A DNA stretch of 64,000 nt from Calothrix sp. HK-06 (GTDB lineage: Bacteria > Cyanobacteriota > Cyanobacteriia > Cyanobacteriales > Nostocaceae): positions 1 to 64,000 of the forward strand of contig NZ_MRCD01000015.1 in the NCBI RefSeq assembly GCF_001904745.1, given 5' to 3'. The translations under genes were made by a program, and so were the position numbers. Below are positions 31,883 through 52,868 of this stretch, one piece after another. Every line of letters begins with the position of its first letter. Positions within the stretch are counted from its first letter, which is position 1. Under the pieces are notes generated by a model. It made no database searches, was not told the DNA's origin, and worked only from the letters and a program-made list of their open reading frames with translations.

Positions 31883-33928
31883 ATGAACTTTTTATTTTTC
31901 GTTTCTCACTGGTTAGTTAAAAATACTTTAAATATAGTTTCCAAACTGTTGCTAAAGCTACGGAATCGTCATTTATTTTTTGTAGATGTATTCATATTTT
32001 CTATAACGCCATTGATAGCGCTGCTTTTGCGTCTCGATGGAAAGCTTGATATAAACTTTTATGCAGAAAGTTTAACGATAGCGACAGCATTATTTTTAGC
32101 AATTAAAGTAGCTGTCTTTTGGAGCTTGGGGTTTTATCGTCGCTATTGGCGTTATGCGAGTATTGAGGAACTGGTATATGTAGGTGTTCTCACAACTGCG
32201 GCAGTAATTGTCCAGGTGATACTGTTCAATACTTTGAAGTTTGTTCTACCAGTGAATGTAAGTGGACTACCTGAGTCGTTACCATTCATTGATGGATTGC
32301 TTACATGTCTTATGATTGGCGGACTTCGCTTTAGTTTTAGAGTTATTGAACGTCTTCAAGAGCGACGTGCTAGTTTTGATTTAGAAGAGCGTGTTATGGT
32401 TATCGGCGCCGGAAATGCTGGAGTGTCTTTAGTGCAAGAGATGCAGCGTAATCCTCATCTTGGTTTACGTCCGGTTGCTTTTATTGATGATGACCCACAA
32501 AAGTTAAATACACGCATTCGCGGAGTGAGTGTCGTCGGCGCCCGAAGTGTGATCCCCGAAGCAGCCAAAAGGTTGTATGCTCGTAAAGCAATTATTGCGA
32601 TGCCAAGTGTTACAGGGCAAGTAATTCGTGATGTTGTGGATATTTGTAAAAAGGCTAAAATTCAAACCAGCACTGTACCTGGACTTGACGAGATTTTGAA
32701 TGGTCGTGTTCGCATTGAAAACATTCGCGATGTCAGAATTGAAGACTTGCTACGTCGTGAACCTGTCCAAACTGAAACTGAGCGTGTTGCAAAGTTTATT
32801 CGAGGCAAAAAGGTTCTAATTACAGGCGCCGGAGGTTCCATAGGTAGTGAATTGTGCCGTCAAATTCTTAAATGTCGTCCTAGTGAAATGATATTAGTTG
32901 GACATGGTGAGAATTCGGTATTCAACATTCAGCAAGAGCTTGAGCAGGTAATTCAGGTACTCAAAGAAGAAAGCAAAACTTTACGTTATAACCCGCGTAT
33001 ATCAGCGTTCATCGCAGATATTCGATTCCGAGAGCGCTTACAACACGCCTTTGAGCGTCATCAGCCTGATGTAGTTTTCCATGCTGCTGCACACAAGCAC
33101 GTACCTTTAATGGAAGTCAATCCTGCTGAAGCGGTAACTAACAATGTTGTGGGTACTAGAAACTTGGTTGAATTGGCTTTGAAATATAATGTTAATCACT
33201 TTGTGATGATATCCACTGATAAAGCTGTAAACCCTACTAATGTAATGGGCGCGAGTAAGCGAGTAGCTGAGATGTTGGTATTGCAAGCAGCAAAACAGAG
33301 TGGAAAGCCGTATGTAGCAGTCCGGTTTGGGAATGTGTTAGGAAGTCGCGGCAGCGTTGTTCCTACATTCAAAAAGCAAATTGCCGCAGGTGGTCCAATA
33401 ACAGTTACTCACCCAGATATATGTCGTTACTTCATGACCATTCCTGAAGCAGTGCAGTTAGTGTTGCAAGCAGCGGTACTCGGTAGAGGAGGTGAAGTGT
33501 TGATGTTGAATATGGGTCAACCAGTCAAGATTGTAGACTTAGCTGAGGAGTTGATTAGGTTATCGGGATATGAGGTTAATAAAGATATTGATATTGTGTT
33601 TACAGGGTTACGACCAGGAGAAAAGTTATTTGAGGAGTTGTTTATAGAAGGTGAAGAATATGACCCTACAGAGCATGAAAAACTATTTATGGTGAAGAAT
33701 GCTAGTCAAATAATTCCTGATAATTTGGATACTGCTGTGAATGCGCTTTGCCAAGCTGCTGCTAAGAATGATGCTAATTCTATTATGTTTTTGTTAGAGC
33801 AGGTGGCGCCAGGTTATAAACCGAAATACATGCAAAACCAAGCATCGGTAGATGCTTCAAAAAATAGTTATGTACTAGAAAAACCAGTTGAGAAGATGTT
33901 TACGAGAATTGAACCAAGAAGAACATAA
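31883..33928 (+). CDS. CapD/FlaA1-like nucleotide-sugar dehydratase, membrane-bound
   Basis: The start at 31883 follows AGGAGGGCTGGAAGG and gives 681 residues. Four membrane helices (about residues 25-150) are followed by a CoA-binding-like Rossmann domain (VMVIGAGNAGVSLVQEMQ). The catalytic SDR domain then has KKVLITGAGGSIGSELCRQI, VFHAAAHKHVPLME and the STDKAVNPTNVMGASKR segment, where the active site has Thr-Asp-Lys as in C6-dehydratases/C5-epimerases. It acts on UDP-GlcNAc-type substrates to start a deoxyamino sugar. It is the first gene of the locus and pairs logically with the DegT-type aminotransferases. Confidence 0.9.
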   Translation: MNFLFFVSHWLVKNTLNIVSKLLLKLRNRHLFFVDVFIFSITPLIALLLRLDGKLDINFYAESLTIATALFLAIKVAVFWSLGFYRRYWRYASIEELVYVGVLTTAAVIVQVILFNTLKFVLPVNVSGLPESLPFIDGLLTCLMIGGLRFSFRVIERLQERRASFDLEERVMVIGAGNAGVSLVQEMQRNPHLGLRPVAFIDDDPQKLNTRIRGVSVVGARSVIPEAAKRLYARKAIIAMPSVTGQVIRDVVDICKKAKIQTSTVPGLDEILNGRVRIENIRDVRIEDLLRREPVQTETERVAKFIRGKKVLITGAGGSIGSELCRQILKCRPSEMILVGHGENSVFNIQQELEQVIQVLKEESKTLRYNPRISAFIADIRFRERLQHAFERHQPDVVFHAAAHKHVPLMEVNPAEAVTNNVVGTRNLVELALKYNVNHFVMISTDKAVNPTNVMGASKRVAEMLVLQAAKQSGKPYVAVRFGNVLGSRGSVVPTFKKQIAAGGPITVTHPDICRYFMTIPEAVQLVLQAAVLGRGGEVLMLNMGQPVKIVDLAEELIRLSGYEVNKDIDIVFTGLRPGEKLFEELFIEGEEYDPTEHEKLFMVKNASQIIPDNLDTAVNALCQAAAKNDANSIMFLLEQVAPGYKPKYMQNQASVDASKNSYVLEKPVEKMFTRIEPRRT

Positions 33929-33996
33929 ATAACTTACATTAAAAGTAAAACACGTTGAAATTAGACTGATTAATTAATGTTTGGAGTTGATAATAA

Positions 33997-35370
33997 ATGG
34001 CAATTTGGCAAAGGCAAGGACAAAAATTACTAATTTTTTGGAAAAACCAAACCAATGCTTCGGTCAACCGTAAAATTTTTAGTGCTGCTATTGCTGTCGG
34101 CTTATTTACTGCTTTAGTAAAAGTTGTTGCCATAATTAAAGAAGTAGTAGTTGCATGGCGATTTGGTACGGGAAACGAGCTAGATGCTTTTTTAATCGCT
34201 CTGACAATTCCCTCTTTTATTATCAATCTTGTCGGAGGTTCTTTAAGTTCTGCTTTGATACCTGTGTATATTAAAGTACTAGAGCAAAAAGGGCTAAAAG
34301 CCGCTCAAAGGCTTTTTTCTGGGGTAACAATTTGCAGTTTGGGGTTTCTGAGCATAGCTGTCATATTCATTTTAAGTACGGCACCAATGTATCTGCCTTG
34401 GATGGCTTCTGGATTTAATTCTGAAAAGCTAAATCTAACTTTCTATTTTTTGTGCGCCCTTTCTCCTTTTATCCTATTAAGCAGTCTGGTAATTATTTGG
34501 AGTTCTATACTGAATGCACGAGAGCATTTTGCTCTTGCCGCCTTTTCTCCAATCGTAACTCCTGCGATTAGTATTGCTTTACTTCTATGGTTTAAGTCTT
34601 GGGGTATTTTTGCCTTAGTTGCAGGATTATTCTTAGGAACAGTACTAGAAATTGTTGCACTGGGTATAGGATTACGTCATCAAGGTATATCATTGTTTCC
34701 CAAGTGGCATGGATTTGATAATGATTTGCGCCAGGTATTCAGTCAGTATATTCCTATGATGGCAGGAGCCTTCTTGCTTTCTAGTGCTATTATTGTCGAT
34801 CAGGCGATGGCAGCCATGTTGTCACCTGGGAGCGTAGCAGTGTTGAACTACAGTAATAGAGCAATAGCATCACCTATGAGCTTAATTACTACAGCTTTAG
34901 GTTCTGCTGTAGTTCCTTATTTCTCTAAAATGATCGCTGTTGAAGATTGGACAGGATTGCGTCAAACCTTTAAAAAATATTTGTGGTTGATATTTATAAC
35001 TACTGCGCCTTTAGCAGGAATGTTTATTATTTTTTCTCAACCCATAGTTCAATTACTTTTTCAAAGAGGTTCATTCCGACTTGAAGACACTTATATTGTT
35101 GCCGAAACTCAAAGTTTTTTTGCATTACAAATACCTTTTTATATTGCTAACCTTTTATTGATAAAATTGGTTATATCTATGCAAATGAGTAATATACTTA
35201 AATGGGTTTCTGGATTTGCTCTGATTCTCAACATTATCTTAAATTATTTCTTTATGCAGTGGTTCGGAATTAAAGGCATTGCTTTATCTACAAGTTGTGT
35301 ATATCTTTTCTCATTCCTATATCTACTTGTTTTTGCTAACAAACAAATTACTCAAAAAATCAATAATTAA
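33997..35370 (+). CDS. MurJ/Wzx-like lipid-linked oligosaccharide flippase
   Basis: This 457-residue protein has about 12-14 membrane helices. The start follows GGAG at a good distance. The pattern FGTGNELDAFLIALTIPSFIINLVGG and VPYFSKMIAVEDW is typical of the MVF/MviN superfamily. In this position, between a CapD-like enzyme and glycosyltransferases, it most likely flips the polysaccharide repeat unit rather than lipid II. The coding region has no GGCGCC site, unlike typical genes elsewhere in the window. Confidence 0.85.
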   Translation: MAIWQRQGQKLLIFWKNQTNASVNRKIFSAAIAVGLFTALVKVVAIIKEVVVAWRFGTGNELDAFLIALTIPSFIINLVGGSLSSALIPVYIKVLEQKGLKAAQRLFSGVTICSLGFLSIAVIFILSTAPMYLPWMASGFNSEKLNLTFYFLCALSPFILLSSLVIIWSSILNAREHFALAAFSPIVTPAISIALLLWFKSWGIFALVAGLFLGTVLEIVALGIGLRHQGISLFPKWHGFDNDLRQVFSQYIPMMAGAFLLSSAIIVDQAMAAMLSPGSVAVLNYSNRAIASPMSLITTALGSAVVPYFSKMIAVEDWTGLRQTFKKYLWLIFITTAPLAGMFIIFSQPIVQLLFQRGSFRLEDTYIVAETQSFFALQIPFYIANLLLIKLVISMQMSNILKWVSGFALILNIILNYFFMQWFGIKGIALSTSCVYLFSFLYLLVFANKQITQKINN

Positions 35371-35410
35371 AACTAAAAAAATTAAACAATTAGAACATTC
35401 TTTATTATTT

Positions 35411-36325
35411 ATGCAAAGCTACCAATACTTATTTACAGTTTTTACGCCCACTTTCAATCGCGCTTATACACTTCATCGCGTTTATGAAAGTCTTGAAGCG
35501 CAAACATATCGTAATTTTGAGTGGCTGATAGTTGATGATGGCTCAACCGATGGCACTTGCGAACTAGTAAAGCAGTGGCAAAAAAAAGCTTCTTTTCCAA
35601 TTCGTTATATTTACCAAGATAATAGTGGTAAGCATATTGCTTTTAATCGAGGAGTTAGAGAAGCTAAAGGCGAATTATTTATTAACCTCGACTCTGACGA
35701 TAGCTGCGTTCCAGAAGCGTTAGGGCGATTAAAATATCATTGGGACAACATTCCAAAAAACCAAAAAATATATTTTTCTGATGTGACTTGTTTATGTAAA
35801 GATCAGTATGGAAAAATTTTGGGCAGAACTTTACCATTTGATAGTATTGATTCTAATTGGCTAGAAATACGCTATCGATACAAAATTGTGCATGAAAAAT
35901 GGGGATTTCACCGTACAGAAGTACTGAAGGAATTTCCGTTTATAGAGGAAATCAAGCAGACATGTATTCCAGAAACTTTGGTATGGCACAAAATTTCCAG
36001 AAAGTACAAAACTAGATTTATCAATGAATATCTGAGAATTTATTGGACTGATACATTATCGATTATGCGAGGTGGGAGTGTAAATAAAAGCGCTATAGGC
36101 AACCGGATTATGCACCAGACGATCCTGAATGAAGAAGTAGATTGGTTGCGTTTCGATCCACTTAGTTTTTTCCGCTCGGCAATTCACTATAGTAGGTTTT
36201 CGTTTCATAAGTGCATTTCAATTTCAGAACAATTCAAACAAATTGAAACAGTTTTAGGTAAAGTCTTATGGTTGGTTAATTTGCCTGTAGGCTATGCAGT
36301 ATACGTCAAAGATCAATTGCTGTAA
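35411..36325 (+). CDS. Family 2 glycosyltransferase
   Basis: The start at 35411 (MQSYQYLFTVFTPTFNRAY) gives 304 residues and avoids a 92-base overlap with the flippase gene. The GT-A fold shows LIVDDGSTDGT (nucleotide-sugar binding) and INLDSDDSCVPEAL (the DxD-type metal site). The C-terminal region has WHKISRKYKTRFINEYLRIYW. It transfers a sugar from an NDP donor to the growing lipid-linked unit; donor and acceptor are unknown. Confidence 0.88.
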   Translation: MQSYQYLFTVFTPTFNRAYTLHRVYESLEAQTYRNFEWLIVDDGSTDGTCELVKQWQKKASFPIRYIYQDNSGKHIAFNRGVREAKGELFINLDSDDSCVPEALGRLKYHWDNIPKNQKIYFSDVTCLCKDQYGKILGRTLPFDSIDSNWLEIRYRYKIVHEKWGFHRTEVLKEFPFIEEIKQTCIPETLVWHKISRKYKTRFINEYLRIYWTDTLSIMRGGSVNKSAIGNRIMHQTILNEEVDWLRFDPLSFFRSAIHYSRFSFHKCISISEQFKQIETVLGKVLWLVNLPVGYAVYVKDQLL

Positions 36326-36374
36326 TGATTTTACAGGTTAGGTAAGAATTTATTATAGACGGAGGTATTGATGT

Positions 36375-37532
36375 ATGACTAAAGAACCTATCACTTTCTT
36401 TCTTCCTAATTTAGCGGGAGGTGGAGCGGAAAAGGTAGTAATAAATTTGCTTAAAGAGATGTCGCAGTTAAATCTACCTTTAGATTTAGTTGTTTCTAGT
36501 ACTGAGGGACCTTATTTGAATCAGATACCTAAGCAAGTTAATCTTGTAAATTTAGCTAAAGGAGGAGTCTTAAAGTGCGTTCTGCCTTTATCACGTTACT
36601 TGAAAGAACGCAGACCCCGCACGTTAATATCACATATGAGTCATGCTAATGTAGCAGCTATGTTAGCTAGTAGACTTGCTCGCACAAAAACTCAATTAAT
36701 ATTAGTACAACACAACACCTTATCAGTTGACAGATCCAAGCTATTACGAGCTAAGTTTGTTCCTATGTTTATGAAATGGCTTTATCCTTATGCAGATAAT
36801 ATTGTCTGTGTATCGTCAGGTGTAGCTCAAGATTTAGTATGTAAACTTGGTTTGGCAAAAGAGAAGGTCAAAGTTATTTACAATCCTGTAGTTAATGAAG
36901 AATTAATTACTGCTTCACAAGCACCCTTAGATCATCCCTGGTTTCAACAAGGCGTTCCACCAGTGTTTTTAGCTGTAGGACGATTAACAGAACAGAAAGA
37001 TTTTATAACTTTATTAGAAGCTTTTGCATTGTTAAGAAAACAAAGATTAGCTCGCTTGGTAATCTTAGGTGAAGGTGAACTAAGAGGTGAATTAGAAGCA
37101 AAGATAAGTCAATTAGGAATAGCTCTTGATGTTTCTCTTCCTGGTTTTGTTACCAATCCTTATGCGTATATGAGCCAAGCAAGTGCTTTTGTACTTTCAT
37201 CACGTTGGGAAGGATTGGGAATTGTTTTAATTGAAGCTATGGCTTGTAGTTGTCCTGTCATAGCTACAGATTGTCCGAATGGTCCTAAAGAAATTCTAGA
37301 AGGAGGAAAATACGGTTACTTAACTCAAGTTGGAGATGTGGTAGCATTATCTAAAGCTATGTTACAGGTATTGGATGCTCCTGTTAATCGAGATTTACTA
37401 AGGCAGAGGGCAATATATTTTTCAAGCAAGCGGGCTGTTTCTGAATATTTGGATTTGTTCGGTAATGGAAAAAATTTCCACAACCACTTGGCAGGAGATT
37501 TAAATAACTCTAAATCTAAACTAATAGTATGA
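36375..37532 (+). CDS. Family 4 glycosyltransferase
   Basis: This 385-residue GT-B enzyme has a GGAGG box 9 bases ahead of its start. It begins TKEPITFFLPNLAGGGAEKV, the acceptor-side GGAE loop. The donor domain carries FLAVGRLTEQKDFITLLEAF and SSRWEGLGIVLIEAMACSCP, whose glutamates bind the nucleotide sugar. A nearer ATG at 36371 is out of frame and soon stops. Its last bases overlap the polymerase gene (ATGA), so the two are coupled. Confidence 0.9.
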   Translation: MTKEPITFFLPNLAGGGAEKVVINLLKEMSQLNLPLDLVVSSTEGPYLNQIPKQVNLVNLAKGGVLKCVLPLSRYLKERRPRTLISHMSHANVAAMLASRLARTKTQLILVQHNTLSVDRSKLLRAKFVPMFMKWLYPYADNIVCVSSGVAQDLVCKLGLAKEKVKVIYNPVVNEELITASQAPLDHPWFQQGVPPVFLAVGRLTEQKDFITLLEAFALLRKQRLARLVILGEGELRGELEAKISQLGIALDVSLPGFVTNPYAYMSQASAFVLSSRWEGLGIVLIEAMACSCPVIATDCPNGPKEILEGGKYGYLTQVGDVVALSKAMLQVLDAPVNRDLLRQRAIYFSSKRAVSEYLDLFGNGKNFHNHLAGDLNNSKSKLIV

Positions 37533-38881
37533 TAGCAGTAGCTTATATTGGCTTAATAGTTTTTATTATATTCACTGAATTTGTGCGTAAAAAAGACCAA
37601 GTATTTGATTTCTTTACTATATTCAATGTATTTTTTTGCTTGCTATATCCTATATCTGTACTCATGCTGATGATTAATGGAGAAAGCAGCAAATTAGAAG
37701 TACTCTATGGCAGTCCATCTTACATTGTTAATATCCAAACTACTCTGGCAATATTTTTAGGATATTTTTGCGTAGCACTAGGCTTTAACTCAAAGTCAGC
37801 CAAGCTATTTGGAGAAAATATGACTATTAAAAGTAGAAGCAACACACACATTATTATTTATGCTGTTTTACTACTATTATTCTCCTGTATAGCAATATAT
37901 ATATATGGCGCTCAATATGGCGGAATTTTAGAAGCTCTATCAAAAACAATTTTAATCAGATCGAATGCTGTCGAAAGTGGTTCGCTAGTATTTTTTAAAC
38001 ACTTTATTCGAGGCTCATTTTTGGCTTCCTATTTATTAGCTTCTTTAGTTTTGTACTTCAAGCATAAGCCATTGAAATTTATTTTATATCTTGTTTTTAT
38101 GTTTTCAGTAACAGCTTCTTTCCTTGCTGCTATGCTTTCGTCTGGTCGCGGCTTTCTCATTAATTACTTTCTTGCCTTTTATTTAGTTTATTTACTTAAA
38201 ACAAAAAAAGTTCTTTCTTGGTCATTTATCCCTATTGTTGTACTTGCAGGTGTGTTTTTGGTAAATGGTAAAACATTTTTTTTAAGTTTAACTGCATTAC
38301 CAGACGGGTTTGATGCTTTTTGGAAAACATTCAATAACTTTCTTTATGAAGAAGAAGCAAGCGAATCTGGATTTTCAGAATTTATGAATAATTTTTCCTA
38401 TACAATTCCTTCTCTAGATCACGCTTTTGAGAGAGAGTATCAAATGCGCCTGTTTATTGATTGGTTTTATGGTTTCATTTATTTAATTCCAGAACGTATT
38501 TTTAATATAACAAAGCCAGAAAGTATTTCATTTTATAATACTTTCTATATTACCGGAGCCAATGATTATGAGGTACCTACAGGCCTTTTGGCTTTTGGTG
38601 TTTATAGTATGTGGTGGCCTGGATTAATACTAGTATCTTTTATTTTTGGATGGATTGGTCGTTATTTACAAGCCATTTGTAACAAACAATTCCAAAAAAT
38701 ACATTGGGCAGAATTTATTTATGTTTTTTTTGCTCAAATTTGGATAGATGTTTTCATGTTTGGAGACCCAAAAGTATTTGTTAGTGCCCATTTCGTGTCT
38801 TTTTTATCAATATTTTTGTTACTAACTTTAACATGTCAAATTTCTTGGATTAAAAAAAATCACAAAACATACACGATATAA
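37529..38881 (+). CDS. Wzy-like O-antigen/capsule polymerase
   Basis: This 450-residue integral membrane protein has roughly 10-12 helices and a large extracytoplasmic loop (about residues 260-330, with EEEASESGFSEFMNNF). Sequence conservation is low, as usual for Wzy proteins, but size, topology and position between glycosyltransferases support polymerase function. It would join flipped repeat units in the periplasm. Its ATG overlaps the preceding TGA. The region is very AT-rich. Confidence 0.75.
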   Translation: MIAVAYIGLIVFIIFTEFVRKKDQVFDFFTIFNVFFCLLYPISVLMLMINGESSKLEVLYGSPSYIVNIQTTLAIFLGYFCVALGFNSKSAKLFGENMTIKSRSNTHIIIYAVLLLLFSCIAIYIYGAQYGGILEALSKTILIRSNAVESGSLVFFKHFIRGSFLASYLLASLVLYFKHKPLKFILYLVFMFSVTASFLAAMLSSGRGFLINYFLAFYLVYLLKTKKVLSWSFIPIVVLAGVFLVNGKTFFLSLTALPDGFDAFWKTFNNFLYEEEASESGFSEFMNNFSYTIPSLDHAFEREYQMRLFIDWFYGFIYLIPERIFNITKPESISFYNTFYITGANDYEVPTGLLAFGVYSMWWPGLILVSFIFGWIGRYLQAICNKQFQKIHWAEFIYVFFAQIWIDVFMFGDPKVFVSAHFVSFLSIFLLLTLTCQISWIKKNHKTYTI

Positions 38882-38889
38882 AGGTTTAT

Positions 38890-40050
38890 ATGAATTCACT
38901 TGATAAAGTTAAAATCCTGTATATAACTACCAATCTGGAAATTGGTGGCGCCGAGAAAATGCTTTATAGCTTGCTATCTAAAATAAATCGGAGTAAGTTT
39001 GAGCCAGCTATTATTTCTTTGATGAATATTGGTATACTAGGCGATAGCTTCAAAGCTTTAGGCATACCCGTATACAGTTTGGGCATGAAACCAAGAATGC
39101 CTACTCTGCCTGTTATTTGGAAATTAATTCGTTTAGTTCATAAATTCAAACCAAATCTCATTCAAGGTTGGATGTATCACGGTAATTTAGCAGCACAATT
39201 AGTTAAGTTGTTTAATATGCAAAAAATTGATGTTTTATGGAGTATTCATCATTCGATAAACTCATTAACATCTGAAAAAAAAATGACTCAATCTATTATT
39301 AAGTTTGGGGCTTTTCTTTCTCAATTCAACGAACAAACTGTTTTTGTATCTAAAAAAAGTAAACTACAACATGATGCACTAGGATACTGCTCCAAACGTA
39401 GCTGTGTAATTCCTAACGGATTTGATACTTCATTATTTAAACCATCACTTGGAGCTAGATATCGTTTAAGAAAAGAAATAGGTTTACCAGAAGATACTTT
39501 TTTAATTGGCTCGTTTGGACGTGACCACCCAATGAAAGACCACCTTAATTTTCTTAAAGCAGCCGCTATATTATTGAAAAAATTTTCTGATGTACATTTC
39601 GTCTTAGCTGGAACTGGTATAGACCTAAACAATCAGAGCATAAATGAATTAGTTCAGGATTTAGGAATTGCCCATCGAATTCATTTGCTAGGAGAGCGCA
39701 ATGATATACCGTATATTACTCCTGCTCTAGATATTTATACTTCTTCTTCAGCCTACGGCGAAGCTTTTCCTCTAGTTGTAGGAGAGGCGATGTCGTGTGG
39801 TGTCCCTTGTGTGGTAACAGATGTAGGTGATTCGGCTTGGATTGTTGGGAATACAGGCATAGTTGTACCTCCAAAAAATTCAGAGGCTTTAGCCAATGCT
39901 TGGAAAGAGTTAATTATGCTTGATCCCCAAGATAGGCAAGCTTTGGGAAAAGCTGCGCGCTCAAAGATAATTAAATCCTTTTCTCTATACTCTGTTATAG
40001 CTCAATACGAAACCTTGTATGAGAAAGTGCTGGCTGAAAAACTTAATTAA
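38890..40050 (+). CDS. Family 4 glycosyltransferase
   Basis: This 386-residue GT-B enzyme begins KILYITTNLEIGGAEKMLYSL. The donor site shows IGSFGRDHPMKDHLNFLKA and a SSSAYGEAFPLVVGEAMSCG motif. LIQGWMYHGNLAAQLV is typical of this GT4 group, which includes N-acetyl-glucosaminyl or galactosyl transferases. It starts eight bases after the polymerase stop. The linkage made is unknown. Confidence 0.9.
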   Translation: MNSLDKVKILYITTNLEIGGAEKMLYSLLSKINRSKFEPAIISLMNIGILGDSFKALGIPVYSLGMKPRMPTLPVIWKLIRLVHKFKPNLIQGWMYHGNLAAQLVKLFNMQKIDVLWSIHHSINSLTSEKKMTQSIIKFGAFLSQFNEQTVFVSKKSKLQHDALGYCSKRSCVIPNGFDTSLFKPSLGARYRLRKEIGLPEDTFLIGSFGRDHPMKDHLNFLKAAAILLKKFSDVHFVLAGTGIDLNNQSINELVQDLGIAHRIHLLGERNDIPYITPALDIYTSSSAYGEAFPLVVGEAMSCGVPCVVTDVGDSAWIVGNTGIVVPPKNSEALANAWKELIMLDPQDRQALGKAARSKIIKSFSLYSVIAQYETLYEKVLAEKLN

Positions 40051-40137
40051 GGAACTGTACAAATTAACTTGAAGACTCTTGCTGGAGAGTTGAGTTCACA
40101 AATTATTATAGATTTGATTTGTAAAAACTAGTTTGAG

Positions 40138-41856: not shown

Positions 41857-41914
41857 TAATCAAAAAAATCTATTAAAAACTTCTGAAATATTAGCTAAAG
41901 CACAATTATTAGTC

Positions 41915-43093: not shown

Positions 43094-43185
43094 TGTCAGT
43101 TTCAGGATATATCTAGAAATTTATCCTTTCCTAAGTCTTAACTCTTCATTTGCTACCCCCTATTTTCAAAACGGAGGATACATCT

Positions 43186-43839: not shown

Positions 43840-43882
43840 GGCGCTTATAGTTGTTTCCTAGAGCTAAAGTTCATTGTTTGTT

Positions 43883-43939
43883 TTATAGCAGTCCTCAATA
43901 ACTCATATTTTTCACAATTGGGCGCACGGACTGCTATAA
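43883..43939. repeat. TTATAGCAGTCC inverted repeat
   Basis: TTATAGCAGTCC (43883-43894) and GGACTGCTATAA (43928-43939) are perfect 12-base arms around 33 bases. It lies between the sugar transferase and the next gene. It could be a dispersed repeat or a partial terminator that splits the locus. Confidence 0.65.
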
Positions 43940-43967
43940 ATAATTTTTACTTATTTCATTCAGGTTT

Positions 43968-45056: not shown

Positions 45057-45105
45057 GATAATAGAACAAGCCAAGTACAGGTAAAATGTATGTTTTGGAG
45101 TGAAG

Positions 45106-46185
45106 ATGCAAACTCAAATAGTTGAATTAAACAACTCATCTTGGCAGCAAGCAATCAAAGATTTGCGTCACGATTTTTATCATTTGCCAGAGTATGTCTA
45201 TTTAGAATCAAAAAGGACTAATACGATTCCTGAAGCGGTTCTAATATCTGAAGACAATAAACAATTTTTTGTTCCTTATCTATTACGCAGTTGCGAAAAT
45301 TTGTTTGAGGATAGTCAGGAGATACCAGAAGCATATGACGTTTCCTCCCCCTATGGCTATCCTGGTTTTTTATTCAATGAAGCTGCGGCTAATTCTCCAA
45401 AATTCATTAGTAGTGCAATTGATAATTTAAAATCTGTTCTTGCAAATAAAAATGTTTGCTCGGCATTTTTTAGATTGCATCCCATACTCAACCTTGGTTT
45501 AAATAAATTTTTGCCAAATAAGATTTGTCAACTGACTGGAGAAACTGTATCCATTAATTTAGAGTTGAGTGAAGAAGAAATTTGGCGCCAGACACGTAAC
45601 GACCATCGAAACAAAATCAATTGGTGCAAGCGTGCTGGTATGACAAGCAAAATGGTTTCCTTCCAAGAATATATTCATGAATTTATGGATATATATGAAG
45701 AGACTATGAGTAGAGTCGGCGCAGTTGATTCTTATTACTTTGATTATGAATATTTTTCCGAAATGTTACAGTTAGGTGACAAGCTACATTTATGTATTGT
45801 GGAATGGGAAGGAGAAATAGCTAGTGCTGGTTTATTTACCGAATGTTGTGGTATTGTTCAATTCCATCTGTCAGGAACAAAAAACAAGTTTTTAAAACAA
45901 GCTCCAAGCAAATTGATGCTAGATTTTGTTAGATATTGGGGAAAAGAGCGGGGAAATAAAATATTTCATTTAGGCGGGGGATTAGGAGGTGGCAAAGACA
46001 GTCTTTACGAATTTAAATCAGGTTTTTCTAAACAGAACCAACCTTTTGTTACAATCCGCTTAATCACAGATGAGGAGAAATATAATTATTTAGTTCAATT
46101 AAGAGCAAAGGTTTTAAATACTCAGGTAGAAGAAATTATAAAGTCTAATTTTTTTCCAGCTTATCGTTCTCCTAATATTAGATAA
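45106..46185 (+). CDS. FemAB/GNAT-fold acyl- or aminoacyltransferase, copy 1
   Basis: The ATG at 45106 is six bases after a GGAG box; a GTG at 45100 is nearer to it and less likely. The 359-residue protein has a tandem GNAT-like fold of the BioF2/FemAB type (Acetyltransf_6). Key stretches are SINLELSEEEIWRQTRNDHR, IVQFHLSGTKNKFLKQAPSK and IFHLGGGLGGGKDSLYEFKS. These enzymes attach acyl or aminoacyl groups to amines. In this locus the target may be an aminosugar. A close paralogue lies at 48612. Confidence 0.8.
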   Translation: MQTQIVELNNSSWQQAIKDLRHDFYHLPEYVYLESKRTNTIPEAVLISEDNKQFFVPYLLRSCENLFEDSQEIPEAYDVSSPYGYPGFLFNEAAANSPKFISSAIDNLKSVLANKNVCSAFFRLHPILNLGLNKFLPNKICQLTGETVSINLELSEEEIWRQTRNDHRNKINWCKRAGMTSKMVSFQEYIHEFMDIYEETMSRVGAVDSYYFDYEYFSEMLQLGDKLHLCIVEWEGEIASAGLFTECCGIVQFHLSGTKNKFLKQAPSKLMLDFVRYWGKERGNKIFHLGGGLGGGKDSLYEFKSGFSKQNQPFVTIRLITDEEKYNYLVQLRAKVLNTQVEEIIKSNFFPAYRSPNIR

Positions 46186-46239
46186 TCAACTTGAGAATGA
46201 TTGTGACATAAATTCTAAATGTTAAGGAAGGTGTATCTA

Positions 46240-47376
46240 ATGAGTAAACGTGTTTTACTAGTGGCTCGAGTATTAGATTCTAGTGGTGTAACAACTCATA
46301 TATTTACTCTGGCACAAGGCTTAATGTCTATGGGGTGGGAAGTCGCTGTAGCTAGCGAAGGGCAAGTGGGAGATCATTCTTACAGTCCACAACGTTTTAA
46401 GGAAAATGGAATACCGCACTTCTATATCCCTTTTCCTAACAGGTCTCTCACGGCAAAGAATTTTATAAATGGATTGAAATGTTATTGGGAAATAGATTCT
46501 ATGGTCAAATCTTTTAATCCTCAGATAATACATGTTCACTGGCCAGCAACTAGCCCTTATGTACGCGCAGTACAGCTACTTCATAAAATTCCTTTTTTAT
46601 CAACTATTCATCTAGAAGGAATGCCTTCTGGATTAGCATACAGATTAGGAGCTTTTTGGGGAGATAAAGCAATTGCTATCAGTGCAGAAACTCGCAAAGA
46701 CTTAATTGAAAATTATAAAGTCTTGCCTTCAAAAATTCGTGTAGTATATAATGGTGTAGATGAATCTTACTTTATTCCCCCTTCAGAAGAGGATTGTCGT
46801 AAGGCACGTCAGAGTTTTGGTTTAAACCAACAAGATAAAGTTGTCTCTCTGTTAGCAAGGTTGGAATATACCAAAGGTCATGATGTCCTAATTAAAGCCA
46901 TCAGCTTGTTACGTGCTAAAGGGTTGGATGTTATTGCTTTACTTGCTGGAGAGGGAACCTGTGCCAAAGCTTTTGCTCAACAAAGTTTAGAATACGGTGT
47001 AGCTGATTTAGTTCGCCAAGTTGGTCATGTAGACAGTCGGCAGGTTTTGTGGGCATCAGATGTATCAGTTTTACCCAGCCGTGTCGAAGGTTTTGGGATA
47101 GTCGTAGTTGAGTCAATGCTGTGCCGAGTAGTGCCAGTTAGAACTCCAGCAGCAGGTGCATACGACCAAATTAAGGATGGAGTCAACGGTTTTATCGTAC
47201 CCTTTGATAATCCTGAAACATTAGCATTACGTTTAGAACAACTTTTTACTGAACGTCAGCTTAAAAATCAAATGGCGGAGAATGCTTTAATTTCAGCAAA
47301 AAATAAGTTTACCCGACAACTTATGCTGGAAAAAACTGTGTCAGTATATCAAGAAATTTTGCAATCAGTCACTTAA
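46240..47376 (+). CDS. Family 4 glycosyltransferase
   Basis: The start at 46240 (MSKRVLLVARVLDSSGVTTH) gives 378 residues and follows GGAAGG; an ATG at 46219 would add seven. The acceptor domain shows IIHVHWPATSPYVRAV. The donor domain shows VVSLLARLEYTKGHDVLIKA and LPSRVEGFGIVVVESMLCRV, a clear GT4 EX7E-like motif. It is located between the two FemAB-like paralogues. Sugar specificity is unknown. Confidence 0.9.
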   Translation: MSKRVLLVARVLDSSGVTTHIFTLAQGLMSMGWEVAVASEGQVGDHSYSPQRFKENGIPHFYIPFPNRSLTAKNFINGLKCYWEIDSMVKSFNPQIIHVHWPATSPYVRAVQLLHKIPFLSTIHLEGMPSGLAYRLGAFWGDKAIAISAETRKDLIENYKVLPSKIRVVYNGVDESYFIPPSEEDCRKARQSFGLNQQDKVVSLLARLEYTKGHDVLIKAISLLRAKGLDVIALLAGEGTCAKAFAQQSLEYGVADLVRQVGHVDSRQVLWASDVSVLPSRVEGFGIVVVESMLCRVVPVRTPAAGAYDQIKDGVNGFIVPFDNPETLALRLEQLFTERQLKNQMAENALISAKNKFTRQLMLEKTVSVYQEILQSVT

Positions 47377-47413
47377 TTTTTTTTCAGAACTAACATTATT
47401 TAATAAACTAACG

Positions 47414-48556
47414 ATGCCTAAACCAATTCTTTTATCAACACCCCATATGGGGAATCAAGAACTAGAATTTGTCAAAGAAGCATTTGAGACTAATTGGATT
47501 GCTCCTGTCGGCCCTCATGTAGATGCTTTTGAGCAAGAATTTTGTAAAATTACTGGTGCTGGATATGCTGCTGCGGTAAGTTCTGGAACAGCTGCTATCC
47601 ATCTCGCGTTAAAATTGCTAGGAGTAGAGTCTAATGATGAAGTATTTTGTTCAACACTGACGTTTGCTGCTACTGCTAATCCGATAGTTTACCAAGGCGC
47701 CAAACCTGTATTTATTGATAGCGACACAAAGTCTTGGAACATGAACCCTGACTTGTTGTATGAAACCCTCGAATACCGCGCGCGTATCGGTAAATTACCT
47801 AAAGCCGTAATCCTCGTGCATCTTTACGGGCAAAGCGCCGATATCGAACCAATTTTGAAAGCGTGTAACCAATATGACGTTACTTTAATTGAAGATGCTG
47901 CGGAAGCTTTAGGTGCCACTTATCAAGGACAAACTCCTGGAACATTTGGGCGTATCGGTATTTATTCATTCAATGGTAATAAAATTATTACTACATCCGG
48001 TGGCGGAATGCTAGTTTCAGACGAACCGGAATTGGTTGCCAAAGCTAGGTTTTTAGCAACGCAGGCGCGCGACCCAGCCCCCCACTACCAGCACTCAGAA
48101 ATTGGTTATAACTACCGCCTTAGCAATGTTTTGGCGGGTATTGGTCGCGGACAACTACAAGTTTTGTCAGAACGTGTAGCAGCACGACGGCGTAACTTTG
48201 AGGTTTATGCTGCGGCATTAAGTAAGTTACCTGGAGTCGAATTTATGCCTGAAGCCAATTATGGTACTTGTAATCGCTGGTTGACCTGCTTAACCATAGA
48301 CCCGGAAGCTTTCGGTGCAGACAAAGAACAAATCCGTCTCACTCTCGCCGCTCAACAAATAGAAACCCGTCCTGTATGGAAACCGTTGCACCTTCAACCA
48401 GTATTTGCAGAATACGAAAGTATAGGTGGCGAGGTAGCGGAAGACTTATTTGCGCGCGGGCTTTGTTTACCATCTGGTTCAAATCTTACCTCGGAAGAAT
48501 TAGACCGAGTTATCGAAGCAATCTTTACTGTTTATCATAAAGCTTGTAACAATTAA
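47414..48556 (+). CDS. DegT/DnrJ/EryC1-family sugar aminotransferase
   Basis: This 380-residue protein is a classical PLP-dependent nucleotide-sugar aminotransferase. It has AVSSGTAAIHLALKLLGV, LIEDAAEALGATYQGQTPGT (PLP Asp) and YSFNGNKIITTSGGGMLV with the Schiff-base lysine in GNK. The substrate region NYRLSNVLAGIGRGQL follows. It most likely aminates the 4-keto sugar produced by the CapD-like dehydratase, as in bacillosamine or perosamine-type pathways. The FemAB-like proteins would then acylate that amine. Confidence 0.93.
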   Translation: MPKPILLSTPHMGNQELEFVKEAFETNWIAPVGPHVDAFEQEFCKITGAGYAAAVSSGTAAIHLALKLLGVESNDEVFCSTLTFAATANPIVYQGAKPVFIDSDTKSWNMNPDLLYETLEYRARIGKLPKAVILVHLYGQSADIEPILKACNQYDVTLIEDAAEALGATYQGQTPGTFGRIGIYSFNGNKIITTSGGGMLVSDEPELVAKARFLATQARDPAPHYQHSEIGYNYRLSNVLAGIGRGQLQVLSERVAARRRNFEVYAAALSKLPGVEFMPEANYGTCNRWLTCLTIDPEAFGADKEQIRLTLAAQQIETRPVWKPLHLQPVFAEYESIGGEVAEDLFARGLCLPSGSNLTSEELDRVIEAIFTVYHKACNN

Positions 48557-48611
48557 TCTCTTTTATACTTTAATTAATTAGGTAGGTAGATTAAATAAAA
48601 TCCTTTAATTT

Positions 48612-49688
48612 ATGCAAGTTGAAATTATTGATATATTTAGTCATAGGTGGTTACAAATGCTACAAAAGATCCGTCATGATGTTTATCATTTACCACAATA
48701 TATATTGACGGAAGCAATTAGAACTAATAGTAAACCAGAAGCTATCCTAATTATTGAAAATGAAAAAACTTTTTGTTTACCTTATTTGTTACGTAACTAT
48801 ACAGATTTATTTGAAAAAAATATAATTGACACAGATTATTATGATATAGGTTCTCCTATCGGTTATGCTGGTTGTTTATTGAATGATGCAGCAAAAAAAG
48901 AGCCATTTTTTTTCAAAGCAGCTATTGAACAGTTGATTAAAAATTTTCGAGATAGAAATATTTGTTCTGCTTTTTTTCGTCTGCATCCAATACTTAACAA
49001 GAACATCAACGAAGTGCTATCTCCTGAAATTATTCAAGTAAATGGAGAAACTTTATCGATTAATCTAAATCTTTCTTCTACAGAAATATGGCGTAACACT
49101 CGATCAGAACATCGTACTAGCATCAATCGCTGTAAACGCAATGGTTTTACAGCCAAAATAGTAAATTATAAACAATATATTCAGGAGTTTATTAATATAT
49201 ATTATGAGACTATGGAGCGCGTAGGAGCAAAAACATATTATTACTTTGATTCCGAATATTTTCACGGGTTAATGAAATTAAATGAAGTTGTTCACTTATG
49301 CATTGTAGAAAAAGATAATAAAATTACATGTGCTGGTATTTTTACAGAATGCTGTGGTATCATTCAATATCATTTGGGAGCAACCAAAAACGAGTTTTTA
49401 AAAGAAGCTCCGAGTAAATTAATGTTTGATTATGTGAGATATTGGGCTAAAGAACGTGAAAATCAAGTATTTCATTTAGGTGGAGGGCTTGGAGGAGCTA
49501 AAACAACTAGCCTTTATCATTTTAAAGCAGGTTTTTCTAATCAAAAACATTCTTTTTTAACACTACGTCTAATTTTAGATCAAGAAAAGTACGATCGTTT
49601 TGTTTATTTAAGGGCAAAAACATTAAGTATGGAGCCACAAAAATTATTAGATTCTAATTTTTTTCCCGCTTACCGTTATGAAGTATAA
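48612..49688 (+). CDS. FemAB/GNAT-fold acyl- or aminoacyltransferase, copy 2
   Basis: This 358-residue paralogue is similar in sequence to the protein at 45106 over its full length. It shows the shared blocks SAFFRLHPILN, GIIQYHLGATKNEFLKEAPS and FHLGGGLGGAKTTSLYHFKA, and both end in SNFFPAYR. Divergence is highest in the N-terminal domain. The two may act in sequence on one substrate or on two amino sugars. The gene lies in a very AT-rich stretch lacking GGCGCC, while copy 1 has one. Confidence 0.8.
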   Translation: MQVEIIDIFSHRWLQMLQKIRHDVYHLPQYILTEAIRTNSKPEAILIIENEKTFCLPYLLRNYTDLFEKNIIDTDYYDIGSPIGYAGCLLNDAAKKEPFFFKAAIEQLIKNFRDRNICSAFFRLHPILNKNINEVLSPEIIQVNGETLSINLNLSSTEIWRNTRSEHRTSINRCKRNGFTAKIVNYKQYIQEFINIYYETMERVGAKTYYYFDSEYFHGLMKLNEVVHLCIVEKDNKITCAGIFTECCGIIQYHLGATKNEFLKEAPSKLMFDYVRYWAKERENQVFHLGGGLGGAKTTSLYHFKAGFSNQKHSFLTLRLILDQEKYDRFVYLRAKTLSMEPQKLLDSNFFPAYRYEV

Positions 49689-49806
49689 AATTTTATTGAG
49701 CGGATACATTGAAAGTTATGTCTTGATAATTAATAAAGTCATTTGACAACTATAAATTTAAAAAAAAACAATCATATCAACTAAAAAAAAGCAAGAGGTT
49801 AAAACT

Positions 49807-50565
49807 ATGGCTAGTAATAAAGAAACTTTCAGCACTATAGATTTTGATTACTGGGCTTGTATAGAAAATTTATCTATTGAGGAAAAATTTATTATAGAAA
49901 CATATTTGGACAAGAAAGCTAAAACTTTAGAAGCTGGCACAGGTGGAGGAAGAATCGCTCTAGAAATGCAAAAAATGGATTTTAAATCGCTTTTTGCTTT
50001 TGATTATATACCTGAGTTTATTGAACACGCGCGTCAAAGAGATAAAATAGGTAGTATTTCTTTTGCGGTGGAAGATGCAAGTGCATTAACTTACCAAAAT
50101 GATGAATTTGAACAGTTAGTTTATTTACAACAAGTTTTATGTAGTATTGAAAATCAATACGCAAGATTAAGTGCTTTTAAAGAAGCTTATCGTATTCTTA
50201 AGAAAGGCGGAACAGCAATTTTCTCTTTTCTAAGTTATGAATCTAGAATTCAGAGTAACTTACACAAAGGATATTTAACATATATACAGCTTTTGAGAAA
50301 GATTTTTAATTCGGAATTTTCATCTCAATATATTTCTCGAATGAAACTGGCAGGTAAACCCAATTTTGGTGCTATTTTTGATCAACAACCGCATATGTAC
50401 TGGTATCGGATTGAGGAAGTGTACCAACTTTTTCAAGATGTAAATTTTAAAATCGTTGCTTTTGGGACTGATTACCAGTTAAGAGAACGAAAAATGTTGA
50501 AATCATTGGAGTATTTGCAAATGCAACCAATTGAAGGAATGCTGTACTTTATATGTGAAAAATAA
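49807..50565 (+). CDS. Class I SAM-dependent methyltransferase
   Basis: Motif I of this 252-residue protein is TLEAGTGGGRIALEMQ. It is followed by FAFDYIPEFIEHARQR, FAVEDASALTYQNDEFEQLV and the post-motif AYRILKKGGTAIFSF, all typical of the Rossmann-like Methyltransf_11 type. A preceding GGTTAAAACT is a weak ribosome site. It may methylate a sugar or the end of the chain, capping the polymer. It is the last modifying gene before the tyrosine kinase. Confidence 0.85.
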   Translation: MASNKETFSTIDFDYWACIENLSIEEKFIIETYLDKKAKTLEAGTGGGRIALEMQKMDFKSLFAFDYIPEFIEHARQRDKIGSISFAVEDASALTYQNDEFEQLVYLQQVLCSIENQYARLSAFKEAYRILKKGGTAIFSFLSYESRIQSNLHKGYLTYIQLLRKIFNSEFSSQYISRMKLAGKPNFGAIFDQQPHMYWYRIEEVYQLFQDVNFKIVAFGTDYQLRERKMLKSLEYLQMQPIEGMLYFICEK

Positions 50566-50657
50566 ATCATTTAGTAAATTTTTACTAGATGGTTAGGACA
50601 AGCGATACAAGCAGTCCAGGCTATTCCCAGCAATTTACTATCAATGGATTTAAGATT

Positions 50658-52868
50658 ATGGAACAGCAAGAATCTTCTGTATTCAACAAATATTGGCAAA
50701 TTCTACAGCGTCGTTGGGTACCTGGTCTAGGTGTATTTTTCCCAATATTTTTGCTTTCAATGTTAGCATCATCATTCAAAAAGCCTTCTTATCAAGCTGA
50801 AGGAAAATTACAGTTTCAACGTACAAATACAATTTCAACTCTGACAGGTGTCGCTCCCGAAATTGGTAAATTAGAACCAGTTGTTCAAGATAATAAAACT
50901 AATCCACTTAATACCGAAGCAGAAGTTATACGCTCACATCCTATTATTCAAAAGACGATTGAACGTCTGAATATCAAAGATGAAAAAGGCACCCTTTTAA
51001 AAACAAGCGAATTTATCAAAAAACTTACAATCAAAGATGTGAAAGGTACTGACGTATTACAGGTTAACTATAACGATATAAATCCTGAAGTTGCTGCCAA
51101 AGTAGTCAATACTTTAATGGAAGCATATTTAGAACATAACATTTCTTATAATCGTAGTGCAGTATCTGCCGCGCGCAAGTTCTTAGAAAAACAAGTACCA
51201 AGTGCAGAGTCAGTTGTTCGCAAAGCTGAAGCTGAACTACGAGAGTTTAAAGAAAAGAATCAAATCGTTTCACTACAAGAAGAAGCGAATAAAGCAGTAC
51301 AATCGCTCAGTGACTTACAAAAGCAAATTGGTGACATTAAAGCACAAATAGCTGATAGTAGTTCGCAAGCGCAAGCAGTTCGTCAAAAACTTGGTATGAC
51401 TTCTGAGCAAGCAGTCACTATGACATCGCTGAGTCAGTCGAGTGGAGTTCAAGAAGTTATAACTGAACTCCAAAAAATAGAACTACAATTAGTAGATAGG
51501 CGCGAAAGTCTCCTAGATACCCATCCAGAAATAATCAAGCTTCAAAATAAAGCTAATTCGTTAAAATATATTTTGCAGAACCGAGTTGGCAGTGTTGCTT
51601 CTGGGCAAAAAATTGCTAGCACTTCAAATTTACAGTTAGGTACACTTAAACAAGACCTTAGTAAGGAACTTGTACAATTAGACTCACGGCGCCTAGGGTT
51701 AGCTAGTCAATTAGCGACACTCACAGGTTTAGAGACAACGTACCGACAACGCTTAAATAATTTACCCAAATTAGAACAGATACAACGAGAATTAGAGCGT
51801 AAAGTTCAAGCTGCCCAATCAACCTACTCACTACTATTACAAAGATTACAAGAAAGTCGCATTGCTGAAAATCAAAATTTGGGTAATGCTCAAGTCATAA
51901 GTCTGGCGCCTACCCCCGATGAACCGATTTCTTCCCCAACAGTAAGTTATTTAAGTGCAGGATTACTAGGCTTATTAACATCAATGGGTACGATGTATCT
52001 ATTAGAAAGCCGTGATAAATACATTAAGAATATTGACGAAGCCAAGGAATTGATGGAATTAACGTTATTGGGTGTTATTCCATCGTTTAGCAAACCAAAA
52101 TCATTCCTCCGTGCTAACAACAACGACGATATCGAAGGTTCCAGTCCCAAGATTGTTGTTCGTGATATTCCACGTTCACCATCAAGTGAAGCTTATAGAA
52201 TGCTGCGCGCAAACCTGAAGTACATCAGTGCGGACAAAGAATTAAAGGTAATTGTTGTTACTAGCTCGGTAGCTAAAGAAGGTAAATCAACTGTTGCAGC
52301 TAACTTAGCAATGGCAATAGCTCAGATGGAACGCCGAGTACTGCTAGTCGATGGAGACTTACATCGTCCTGTTCAACATAACATTTGGGATTTACCTAAT
52401 AGCGAAGGTTTGAGTAACGTAATTGTTGGTCAGTCAGACGCACGAACGGCAATTATACGAGTCATGGATAATTTATACGTTCTCCCCTCCGGAATTGTAC
52501 CACCTAGCCCAGCATCATTACTTGACTCCAAGCGCATGGCAACTTTAATTGATTCATTTAGAAACAATTATGATTGCGTCATTATAGACACGCCTTGTCT
52601 CAGTATCGGCGCCGATGCAGCAGCTTTAGGCCAAATGGCAGATGGTGTGTTATTCGTTGTTCGTCCAGGAGTAGTTGATGTTGTTAATGCCGCATTCGCT
52701 AAAGACTTATTAGAAAAATCTGGACAGAATGTGTTGGGACAAGTCGTTAATGGCGTTATTGCCAAGAATGAACCTTACAGTAATTACTACTTCAACAACG
52801 AAGACTATTACTCACAAGAAAGTATTGGTCGAGTCGTTAATGAAGATGGCATAGGAATAAGGGGGTAA
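50658..52868 (+). CDS. Wzc/ExoP-type polysaccharide co-polymerase and tyrosine autokinase
   Basis: The start at 50658 (MEQQESSVFNKYWQ) gives 736 residues; an upstream ATG at 50589 would add 23. The Wzz domain begins with a membrane helix (LGVFFPIFLLSMLA). A long periplasmic coiled coil runs to about 420, with a second helix SYLSAGLLGLLTSMGTMYLL. The BY-kinase domain has Walker A SVAKEGKSTVAANLA (about 535-550), Walker A' VLLVDGDLHRP and Walker B CVIIDTP. The C-terminus has a tyrosine cluster, YSNYYFNNEDYYSQ, for autophosphorylation. It controls chain length and export. Confidence 0.93.
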   Translation: MEQQESSVFNKYWQILQRRWVPGLGVFFPIFLLSMLASSFKKPSYQAEGKLQFQRTNTISTLTGVAPEIGKLEPVVQDNKTNPLNTEAEVIRSHPIIQKTIERLNIKDEKGTLLKTSEFIKKLTIKDVKGTDVLQVNYNDINPEVAAKVVNTLMEAYLEHNISYNRSAVSAARKFLEKQVPSAESVVRKAEAELREFKEKNQIVSLQEEANKAVQSLSDLQKQIGDIKAQIADSSSQAQAVRQKLGMTSEQAVTMTSLSQSSGVQEVITELQKIELQLVDRRESLLDTHPEIIKLQNKANSLKYILQNRVGSVASGQKIASTSNLQLGTLKQDLSKELVQLDSRRLGLASQLATLTGLETTYRQRLNNLPKLEQIQRELERKVQAAQSTYSLLLQRLQESRIAENQNLGNAQVISLAPTPDEPISSPTVSYLSAGLLGLLTSMGTMYLLESRDKYIKNIDEAKELMELTLLGVIPSFSKPKSFLRANNNDDIEGSSPKIVVRDIPRSPSSEAYRMLRANLKYISADKELKVIVVTSSVAKEGKSTVAANLAMAIAQMERRVLLVDGDLHRPVQHNIWDLPNSEGLSNVIVGQSDARTAIIRVMDNLYVLPSGIVPPSPASLLDSKRMATLIDSFRNNYDCVIIDTPCLSIGADAAALGQMADGVLFVVRPGVVDVVNAAFAKDLLEKSGQNVLGQVVNGVIAKNEPYSNYYFNNEDYYSQESIGRVVNEDGIGIRG

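Follow-up and report, generated by a model that had tools for sequence, protein, structure and literature searches.

Between a capD-like and a wzc-like gene, a stretch of DNA from Calothrix sp. HK-06 carries a surface-polysaccharide cassette of 14 genes that is poor in GGCGCC, the highly iterated palindrome (HIP) of its genus. The analyzed stretch comprises 64,000 nucleotides (contig NZ_MRCD01000015.1, positions 1 to 64,000) and is called the window below. The best explanation of the results is an imported, swappable cassette that has been partly converted, in a genus whose GGCGCC abundance would be tied to methylation of the inner cytosine of the motif, and a probability of about 0.8 was assigned to this joint reading. 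The 17-kb stretch from capD to wzc would be of foreign origin and would move between strains as one unit, for which homologous recombination within the conserved ends of capD and wzc would be the simplest route. Its donors would have been bacteria that lack the GGCGCC habit, with other cyanobacteria as the probable source, and, thus, the cassette would have arrived with few GGCGCC and with the GATC that the host avoids. After its arrival it would have moved towards the host, yet it is still GGCGCC-poor and GATC-rich compared with the chromosome.

GGCGCC in the capD-wzc cassette

Seven genomes of the genus were compared, i.e., the window genome (about 10 Mb) and six relatives: Calothrix PCC 7103, NIES-4105, C42_A2020_038 and PCC 7716, Dulcicalothrix desertica PCC 7102, and a further genome, G008. 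The window has 38% G+C and contains 91 GGCGCC, while its base composition predicts 3. A sequence-only reading of the window had noted seven GGCGCC in about 18 kb, with two empty gaps of 5.1 and 4.0 kb, and this was confirmed. Seven sites lie within 33,810-51,685 (38947-47701, with starts at 38947, 40919, 43061, 43649, 44532, 45584 and 47696) and 84 in the other 46.1 kb, which is a 4.6-fold contrast; the gaps extend from 33,805 to 38,947 and from 47,696 to 51,688. The density in the remainder of the window is 1.80 per kb versus 1.39-1.49 across 702 kb of the same genome, 395 kb of which are contigs chosen via earlier GGCGCC pattern matches. Against this genome background the contrast is about 3.7-fold. 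Among 72 background stretches (16-20 kb each, three genomes), one was equally GGCGCC-poor (0.30 per kb), and it was mostly mobile-element-like.

The abundance of GGCGCC is a property of the genus. In samples of three genomes the ratio of observed to expected sites (O/E) after codon shuffling was 12.9, 13.3 and 13.9, the six relatives have 52-103 sites per 60 kb each, and about half of the places that the proteins permit are filled. HIP1 (GCGATCGC) is absent from the window, and 1.50 Mb of three genomes contain 22 HIP1 versus 2268 GGCGCC. No GGCGCC was found in 21-22 kb of each of the near outsiders CSU_2_0, C. elsteri, NIES-3974 and Richelia SL_2_1. Thus, GGCGCC is the highly iterated palindrome of the genus and replaces HIP1.

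To separate the depletion from composition, every protein position able to encode GGCGCC by synonymous choice was counted as a potential site, and the fraction of realised sites was scored per gene. The cassette fills 7 of 42 potential sites (0.17), the rest of the window 67 of 127. Two samples of the window genome gave 454/970 (from contigs matched by GGCGCC pattern searches, so that this value may lean high) and 347/762 (chosen by arbitrary contig number), and the values for PCC 7716 and NIES-4105 were 513/1035 and 523/1079, respectively. The fill of the cassette was below that of all 56 background blocks with at least 42 potential sites, the lowest of which had 0.26. A low fill was also seen in the relatives: 14/49 potential sites were realised in the cassette of PCC 7103, 8/36 in PCC 7716, 9/37 in PCC 7102, 8/31 in NIES-4105 and 7/33 in C42_A2020_038. 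The fill fractions of the six cassettes were 0.17-0.29 and those of their flanks 0.41-0.57 (pooled 53/228 versus 746/1503, the cassettes being partly related to one another).

Part of the 4.6-fold density contrast is composition. If composition were the whole cause, polysaccharide genes, being AT-rich and having few Gly-Ala, Ala-Pro and Arg motifs, could not hold many GGCGCC whatever their origin, and indeed the cassette has 35% G+C and only 0.79 potential sites per 100 amino acids (about 1.0 elsewhere), and genes below 34% G+C elsewhere also have a lower GGCGCC density. The PCC 7716 cassette is also not GGCGCC-poor by codon shuffling (8 observed, 0.4 expected, O/E 21.8), while the O/E was 5.6 in the window cassette and 7.7 in that of NIES-4105, with 11.6-13.5 in the flanks. 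When gene G+C and protein sequence were controlled, however, 18.5 sites were expected in the window cassette and 7 were observed (P = 1.8e-4). The possibility that AT-rich native genes are just as poor was not borne out, because background genes at 30-36% G+C had 33-44% of their potential sites filled per bin, compared with 17% in the cassette. In addition, 16 homologues of cassette genes elsewhere in three genomes were normally filled (34/70 versus 7/42, P 0.001), and with the codon-shuffle control GATC deviates the other way (see below). Composition as the sole cause was disfavoured by the potential-site, G+C-matched, same-function and codon-shuffle controls (the shuffle in PCC 7716 excepted), and this explanation is judged improbable. 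The proposal that low density marks acquired or exchanged DNA has to be qualified accordingly, because composition accounts for part of the drop.

A second case, from the GGCGCC-poor background stretch mentioned above, was found in the PCC 7716 chromosome (6.10 Mb; L144:744-15216). About 15 kb with normal G+C have no GGCGCC in any listed gene, contain a Prim-Pol primase and an ISL3 transposase and adjoin a serine recombinase. This is probably a mobile element, and it is an independent example that low GGCGCC marks imported DNA.

HIP1 was analyzed downstream of capD in other cyanobacteria, and the depletion was modest (48 of 80 loci examined). At the 43 of those loci with a dominant motif, genus rows included, 325 sites were found upstream and 231 downstream, and the downstream value was lower in 27. 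As the effect is only modest across loci, depletion downstream of capD was discarded as a general law.

Exchange of the cassette between strains

The cassette and its borders comprise the following features; all genes are on the + strand except the last one.

31835-33928, +: left border, capD-like gene, membrane UDP-GlcNAc-type 4,6-dehydratase (Polysacc_synt_2 Pfam, E 2e-120)
33828-33859: left breakpoint zone, where blastn DNA identity to PCC 7103, PCC 7716 and PCC 7102 stops
33997-43093, +: block A, common to Calothrix NIES-4105 through exchange, with the next seven genes (assigned by Pfam/NCBIfam)
33997-35370, +: MurJ/MATE-type flippase, probable Wzx
35279-36325, +: glycosyltransferase family 2 (GT2)
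36375-37532, +: glycosyltransferase family 4 (GT4)
37529-38881, +: Wzy-like polymerase (weak TIGR04370 match)
38890-40050, +: GT4
40138-41856, +: GH42-like protein
41915-43093, +: GT4
43150-50565, +: right part of the cassette, with the next seven genes
43150-43839, +: initiating sugar-phosphate transferase (PF02397, E 1e-67)
43968-45056, +: weakly DegT-like, a weak relative of the LegC/PseC-type aminotransferase
45100-46185, +: FemAB-like transferase
46219-47376, +: GT4
47414-48556, +: LegC/PseC-type aminotransferase
48612-49688, +: second FemAB-like transferase
49807-50565, +: S-adenosylmethionine-dependent methyltransferase
34798-50383: 19 GATC sites of the cassette (whole window: 31), a word that the flanks avoid
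50589-52868, +: right border, wzc-like polysaccharide copolymerase/tyrosine autokinase (NCBIfam TIGR01007, above cut-off)
53284-54384, -: conserved methyltransferase gene just beyond the cassette, 88-94% identical in all six relatives

Five of the 14 cassette genes encode glycosyltransferases, and three match no Pfam family. The flippase matches MurJ (PF03023), with a score under the MurJ equivalog cut-off, and MatE, and has 11 segments that resemble transmembrane helices; from its gene setting it is probably Wzx. The Wzy-like gene has 8 such segments and matches TIGR04370 with an E value of 4e-8 (32.8 bits, cut-off 40). From its gene content, the locus probably specifies a Wzx/Wzy-dependent coat with an amino sugar. 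The two FemAB-like genes, of the aminoacyl/acyl transferase type, are paralogues with 55% identity, and each of the five relatives that retain the locus has related genes in its cassette. The GH42-like protein has a hydrophobic N-terminus and a relative in NIES-4105 at 89%.

The ends of the locus are conserved. The capD-like gene fills 4 of its 5 potential GGCGCC positions, and it was found near full length with 81-93% amino acid identity in five of the six relatives and as a 200-amino-acid remnant in the sixth. The wzc-like protein is 94% identical in PCC 7103 and 84% in NIES-4105; in PCC 7716, PCC 7102 and C42_A2020_038 the identity is 61-62%, and there the gene diverged together with the cassette. 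The identity to PCC 7103 breaks at about 33.83 and 50.65 kb. The right edge of the depletion had been placed in the middle of the kinase gene, but in the sequence the edges lie at the 3' end of capD and at the 5' end of wzc. The apparent edge in mid-wzc is partly accidental, because the first 1.1 kb of wzc contain only one potential site.

The view that a variable middle was exchanged between conserved ends was strengthened by the strain comparison. The flanking genes match across all six relatives. Compared with PCC 7103, PCC 7716 and PCC 7102, for which the synonymous divergence (dS) of the flanks is about 0.16, the cassette genes have a dS of at least 1.06 or are without counterpart. The opposite was found for block A and NIES-4105, with dS values of 0.11-0.34 (six gene pairs; the overlapping GT2 was unscored), while 48 flank genes of the same pair had 0.37-1.38 with a median of 0.65, all above block A (Mann-Whitney p 8e-8). 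Block A fills 3 of 20 potential GGCGCC sites and has 13 GATC. In the right part the dS to NIES-4105 was 1.06-2.0 for three genes. G008 has lost the locus, and its contig C6 retains three fused remnants, i.e., capD, the aminotransferase/FemAB junction and wzc. Also in phylogenetic trees the internal genes depart from the species tree. In the capD tree of 25 loci the five genus rows were monophyletic with a support of 100/100, but in the flippase tree of the same 25 loci they were split in two on long stems, and monophyly was rejected (approximately unbiased (AU) test, p 0.003). Conserved flanks around unrelated middles in close relatives, together with middle genes that are closer than the flanks in some pairs, show that this is a serotype-like exchangeable cassette.

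Some cassettes may be older residents. Type 2 is common to C42_A2020_038, PCC 7716 and PCC 7102. The cassettes of PCC 7716 and PCC 7102 look vertically inherited, with a cassette dS of 0.06-0.40 and a flank median of 0.14, and the cassette dS of C42_A2020_038 to these two was 0.44-0.94, with flank medians of 0.91 and 0.89, a discordance like that of block A and thus a further sign of exchange. One might propose old alleles within the genus that are kept by diversifying selection without any outside import, selection opposing the palindrome or its methylation. The persistence of type 2 across this deep divergence and the low fill of all six cassettes are in agreement with that proposal, but homologous enzymes elsewhere show no such effect, the flippase types scatter among genes of other families, and selection against GGCGCC leaves the excess of GATC unexplained. 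It has, therefore, little probability.

GATC provides a second signal, and it points the other way. Codon shuffling revealed that GATC is avoided 8- to 10-fold in the flank genes of the window genome, PCC 7716 and NIES-4105 (O/E 0.10-0.13), and that the avoidance is about 4-fold weaker in the window cassette. The O/E was 0.42 in the window cassette versus 0.10 in its flanks and 0.50 versus 0.13 in NIES-4105 (binomial excess in the cassette, p 1.5e-5 and p 2.8e-5, respectively), and it was 0.28 in the PCC 7716 cassette. Per 100 kb, flank and cassette had 22 and 114 GATC in the window genome, 29 and 53 in PCC 7716, 28 and 91 in PCC 7102, 41 and 132 in NIES-4105, 60 and 69 in PCC 7103, and 88 and 136 in C42_A2020_038. 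PF02086 methylases are present in all seven genus genomes, and, thus, their loss does not explain the avoidance.

Two further observations concern such words. GAGCTC and GTCGAC are not found in the flank genes of the window genome, PCC 7716 and NIES-4105, nor is CTGCAG in those of the window genome. In Calothrix parasitica NIES-267 (L047) GATC is equally rare (27 per 100 kb), and both GGCGCC and HIP1 are infrequent in 22 kb.

Integrase insertion of a conventional genomic island at a tRNA gene would also produce a sharp compositional block. The window has no tRNA, the Pfam matches obtained for the 14 genes include no integrase, transposase or other recombinase (three genes are without any family match; att repeats were not searched for), and the breakpoints lie inside conserved polysaccharide genes. 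An island of this kind is very improbable.

Several results weigh against import and exchange of the cassette, in addition to the codon shuffle in PCC 7716. The GGCGCC contrast is weak in PCC 7103 (cassette 14/49, 0.29; flanks 96/236, 0.41), where GATC is also almost without contrast (69 versus 60 per 100 kb), and the GATC excess in the PCC 7716 cassette is marginal (p 0.054). Some native genes are GGCGCC-poor too, e.g., 57072-58370 fills 1 of 6 potential sites. The right-hand genes 48612-49688 and 49807-50565 have a flank-level dS to NIES-4105 (0.51-0.55); as they are the most AT-rich of the right part, AT-richness alone does not lower dS. In a previous flippase tree, which had other rows, the test was weak (AU p 0.0475), and the placement of the window flippase among other families is modestly supported (89/84). 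A donor of the cassette was sought and none was found; when the GH42-like protein was used as a probe at E 1e-20, 290 other genomes drawn from the order had no relative. The exact HIP1 occurs 6 times in the 97 kb of the six cassettes (in PCC 7716, PCC 7102, NIES-4105 and C42_A2020_038) versus 22 times in 1.5 Mb of background. These sites are possible relics of HIP1-type donors; the cassette of the window has none, and they were not relied on.

Exchange of this kind is ordinary, as surface-polysaccharide genes are swapped in many bacteria. Capsule and O-antigen loci have conserved border genes around unrelated middles. Whole-locus exchange, with a locus distance below the genome distance, is described for Enterobacteriales (PMC7305143), from which the present case differs in being cyanobacterial, in its capD and wzc borders and in the deletion scar of G008.

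Substitutions at GGCGCC and the C5-methylases

The flank orthologues of the seven genomes contain 168 positions with GGCGCC in at least one genome. C3>T and G4>A accounted for 63 of the 81 single-base alternatives to GGCGCC. The inner transition was 8-fold raised where it changes the amino acid (21/168 versus 24/1546 in the control, P 9e-11), while the outer amino-acid-changing transitions were unraised (0/79 versus 4/520, 1/79 versus 1/82 and 1/52 versus 7/547). Outer synonymous changes were nearly gone, with 2/79 versus 130/393 for C6>T and 0/37 versus 177/479 for C5>T. The simple contrast of C3 and C6 was abandoned as a measure of inner C>T, because a CpG-context control left an excess at amino-acid-changing positions only.

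Where the outgroups present (NIES-4105, C42_A2020_038 or both) agreed, the ancestral state was called. At 54 sites GGCGCC was ancestral; 24 of these had lost it in one or more strains, to GGTGCC in 12 cases, to GGCACC in 5, to AGCGCC in 3, and to others in one or two each. GGTGCC or GGCACC was ancestral three times, and GGCGCC was gained in two of these cases; other GGT changed to GGC in 32 of 272. By codon shuffling, the one-base neighbours of GGCGCC are below expectation in three genomes, except GGTGCC/GGCACC in the window genome (O/E 1.11, with 0.77 in PCC 7716 and 0.65 in NIES-4105); GGCGAC/GTCGCC are less depleted in NIES-4105 (O/E 0.86). Among related cassettes that differ at GGCGCC, GGTGCC was the partner in 6 of 20 listed differences (four overlapping pairs).

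The substitution pattern suggests that the inner C of GGCGCC is methylated. A candidate enzyme is C5-methylase family A, with 12 proteins in all seven genus genomes (49 of 56 matches clustered). The copy of the window genome is 55% identical over the whole 290-amino-acid query to a plasmid gene annotated hindVM. Five of the seven genomes have two or more copies, counting a partial neighbour in the window genome, where two adjacent HindV-like C5-methylase genes lie at C60:8067-10015, one match being seemingly partial. By homology to the BsaHI and HindV GRCGYC methyltransferases (PMC2413257), among which its copy resembles hindVM, family A would methylate GRCGYC, including GGCGCC. M.BsaHI is reported to methylate the central C of GRCGYC, and H. 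influenzae Rd is named as the host of HindVP (PMC2413257); for this strain GRCGYC is listed as the methylated motif (PMC8565308). C5-methylase family B was set aside as a cause, as it occurs in 41 of 60 genomes sampled from the family.

In the proposed cycle, which would keep GGCGCC at about half of its possible sites, HindV/BsaHI-like methylases would methylate the inner C of GGCGCC, which would go to T like 5-methylcytosine and thus yield GGTGCC or GGCACC, even where the protein changes. Lost sites would then be refilled, and most other one-base departures would be strongly suppressed, both by some biased process in which no Pfam-type Vsr enzyme takes part. Such a Vsr-type repair enzyme was dropped as refilling agent, because no PF03852 match (E 0.001) was found in the seven genus genomes, while 5 of 14 control genomes match. 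Some results speak against the cycle. Inner synonymous C>T was no higher than in other CG contexts (27/79 versus 35/82), and another comparison of the inner synonymous change also gave no excess (15/52 versus 188/547). Outside the genus, family A was also found in 15 of 58 sampled genomes, and it is, therefore, not sufficient for GGCGCC abundance; at least one carrier, NIES-3974, is among the outsiders without GGCGCC in 22 kb.

Iterated palindromes in cyanobacteria have been known since 1995, and their cause is still a model for Elhai, who described GGCGCC as the alternative HIP of Calothrix PCC 7103 (Elhai 2015, PMC4390886). The present results agree with that work in the palindrome, the strain PCC 7103, the rarity of HIP1, the depletion of other GRCGYC words and the presence, by homology, of GRCGYC-type methylases. 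They differ in that GGCGCC was found in all seven genus genomes, with a median dS up to about 1, while exceptional HIPs are described as sporadic and not in clades (PMC4390886). The model requires methylation of the inner C, and the methylation site is stated there to be unknown for this specificity. Neither the inner-C hotspot nor the fraction-of-potential measure appears in the portions of that paper considered here. Among the papers listed from open-licence PMC full text (8 of 1,332 in one listing), judged by title and the start of the abstract, none besides Elhai's treats GGCGCC as an iterated palindrome. Within this coverage the inner-C hotspot and the persistence of GGCGCC through a genus seem new.

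Residence in the genus and significance

The sequence-only reading had also called the cassette recently acquired, and this part did not hold. All six cassettes are GGCGCC-poor when scored by potential sites, yet the three that were tested by codon shuffling (window genome, PCC 7716 and NIES-4105) exceed the null, and, thus, they have been resident in GGCGCC genomes for some time. In these three, both words lie between random and host-like, except GGCGCC in PCC 7716, which is host-like. The cassettes seem to have entered the genus before the latest exchanges, which were between genus strains. A residence time was estimated by two-state turnover, but the rates were 5-fold apart between pairs, and the dating of the import was dropped.

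That transferred genes can be recognized by a low palindrome density has been reported before. In Synechococcus elongatus PCC 7942, scarce HIP1 is reported to indicate foreign genes (PMC3025956), and anomalous oligomers have been used to detect transfer (PMC3497702). The logic of the HIP1 work is the same, i.e., imported genes lack the iterated palindrome of the host. The present case differs in the palindrome, GGCGCC, and in the control for coding potential, and it adds a host-avoided word with the opposite signal and a strain comparison that supports transfer. The score of realised to possible GGCGCC singled out imported DNA in two cases, one of them at normal G+C, and together with host-avoided GATC it provides two opposed signals of import.

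Taken together, the substitutions at GGCGCC provide sequence evidence as to what causes iterated palindromes: the inner cytosine looks methylated and hypermutable, and in other respects the motif is kept. The methylation-linked cycle, the stable clade trait and gene filling as a residence clock, taken as one reading, are put forward tentatively, at slightly less than even odds. If this reading is true, GGCGCC would be a stable trait of the clade, in contradiction to the literature, in which exceptional HIPs are held not to persist, and imported blocks such as the capD-wzc cassette would be dated by how far GGCGCC is filled in their genes.

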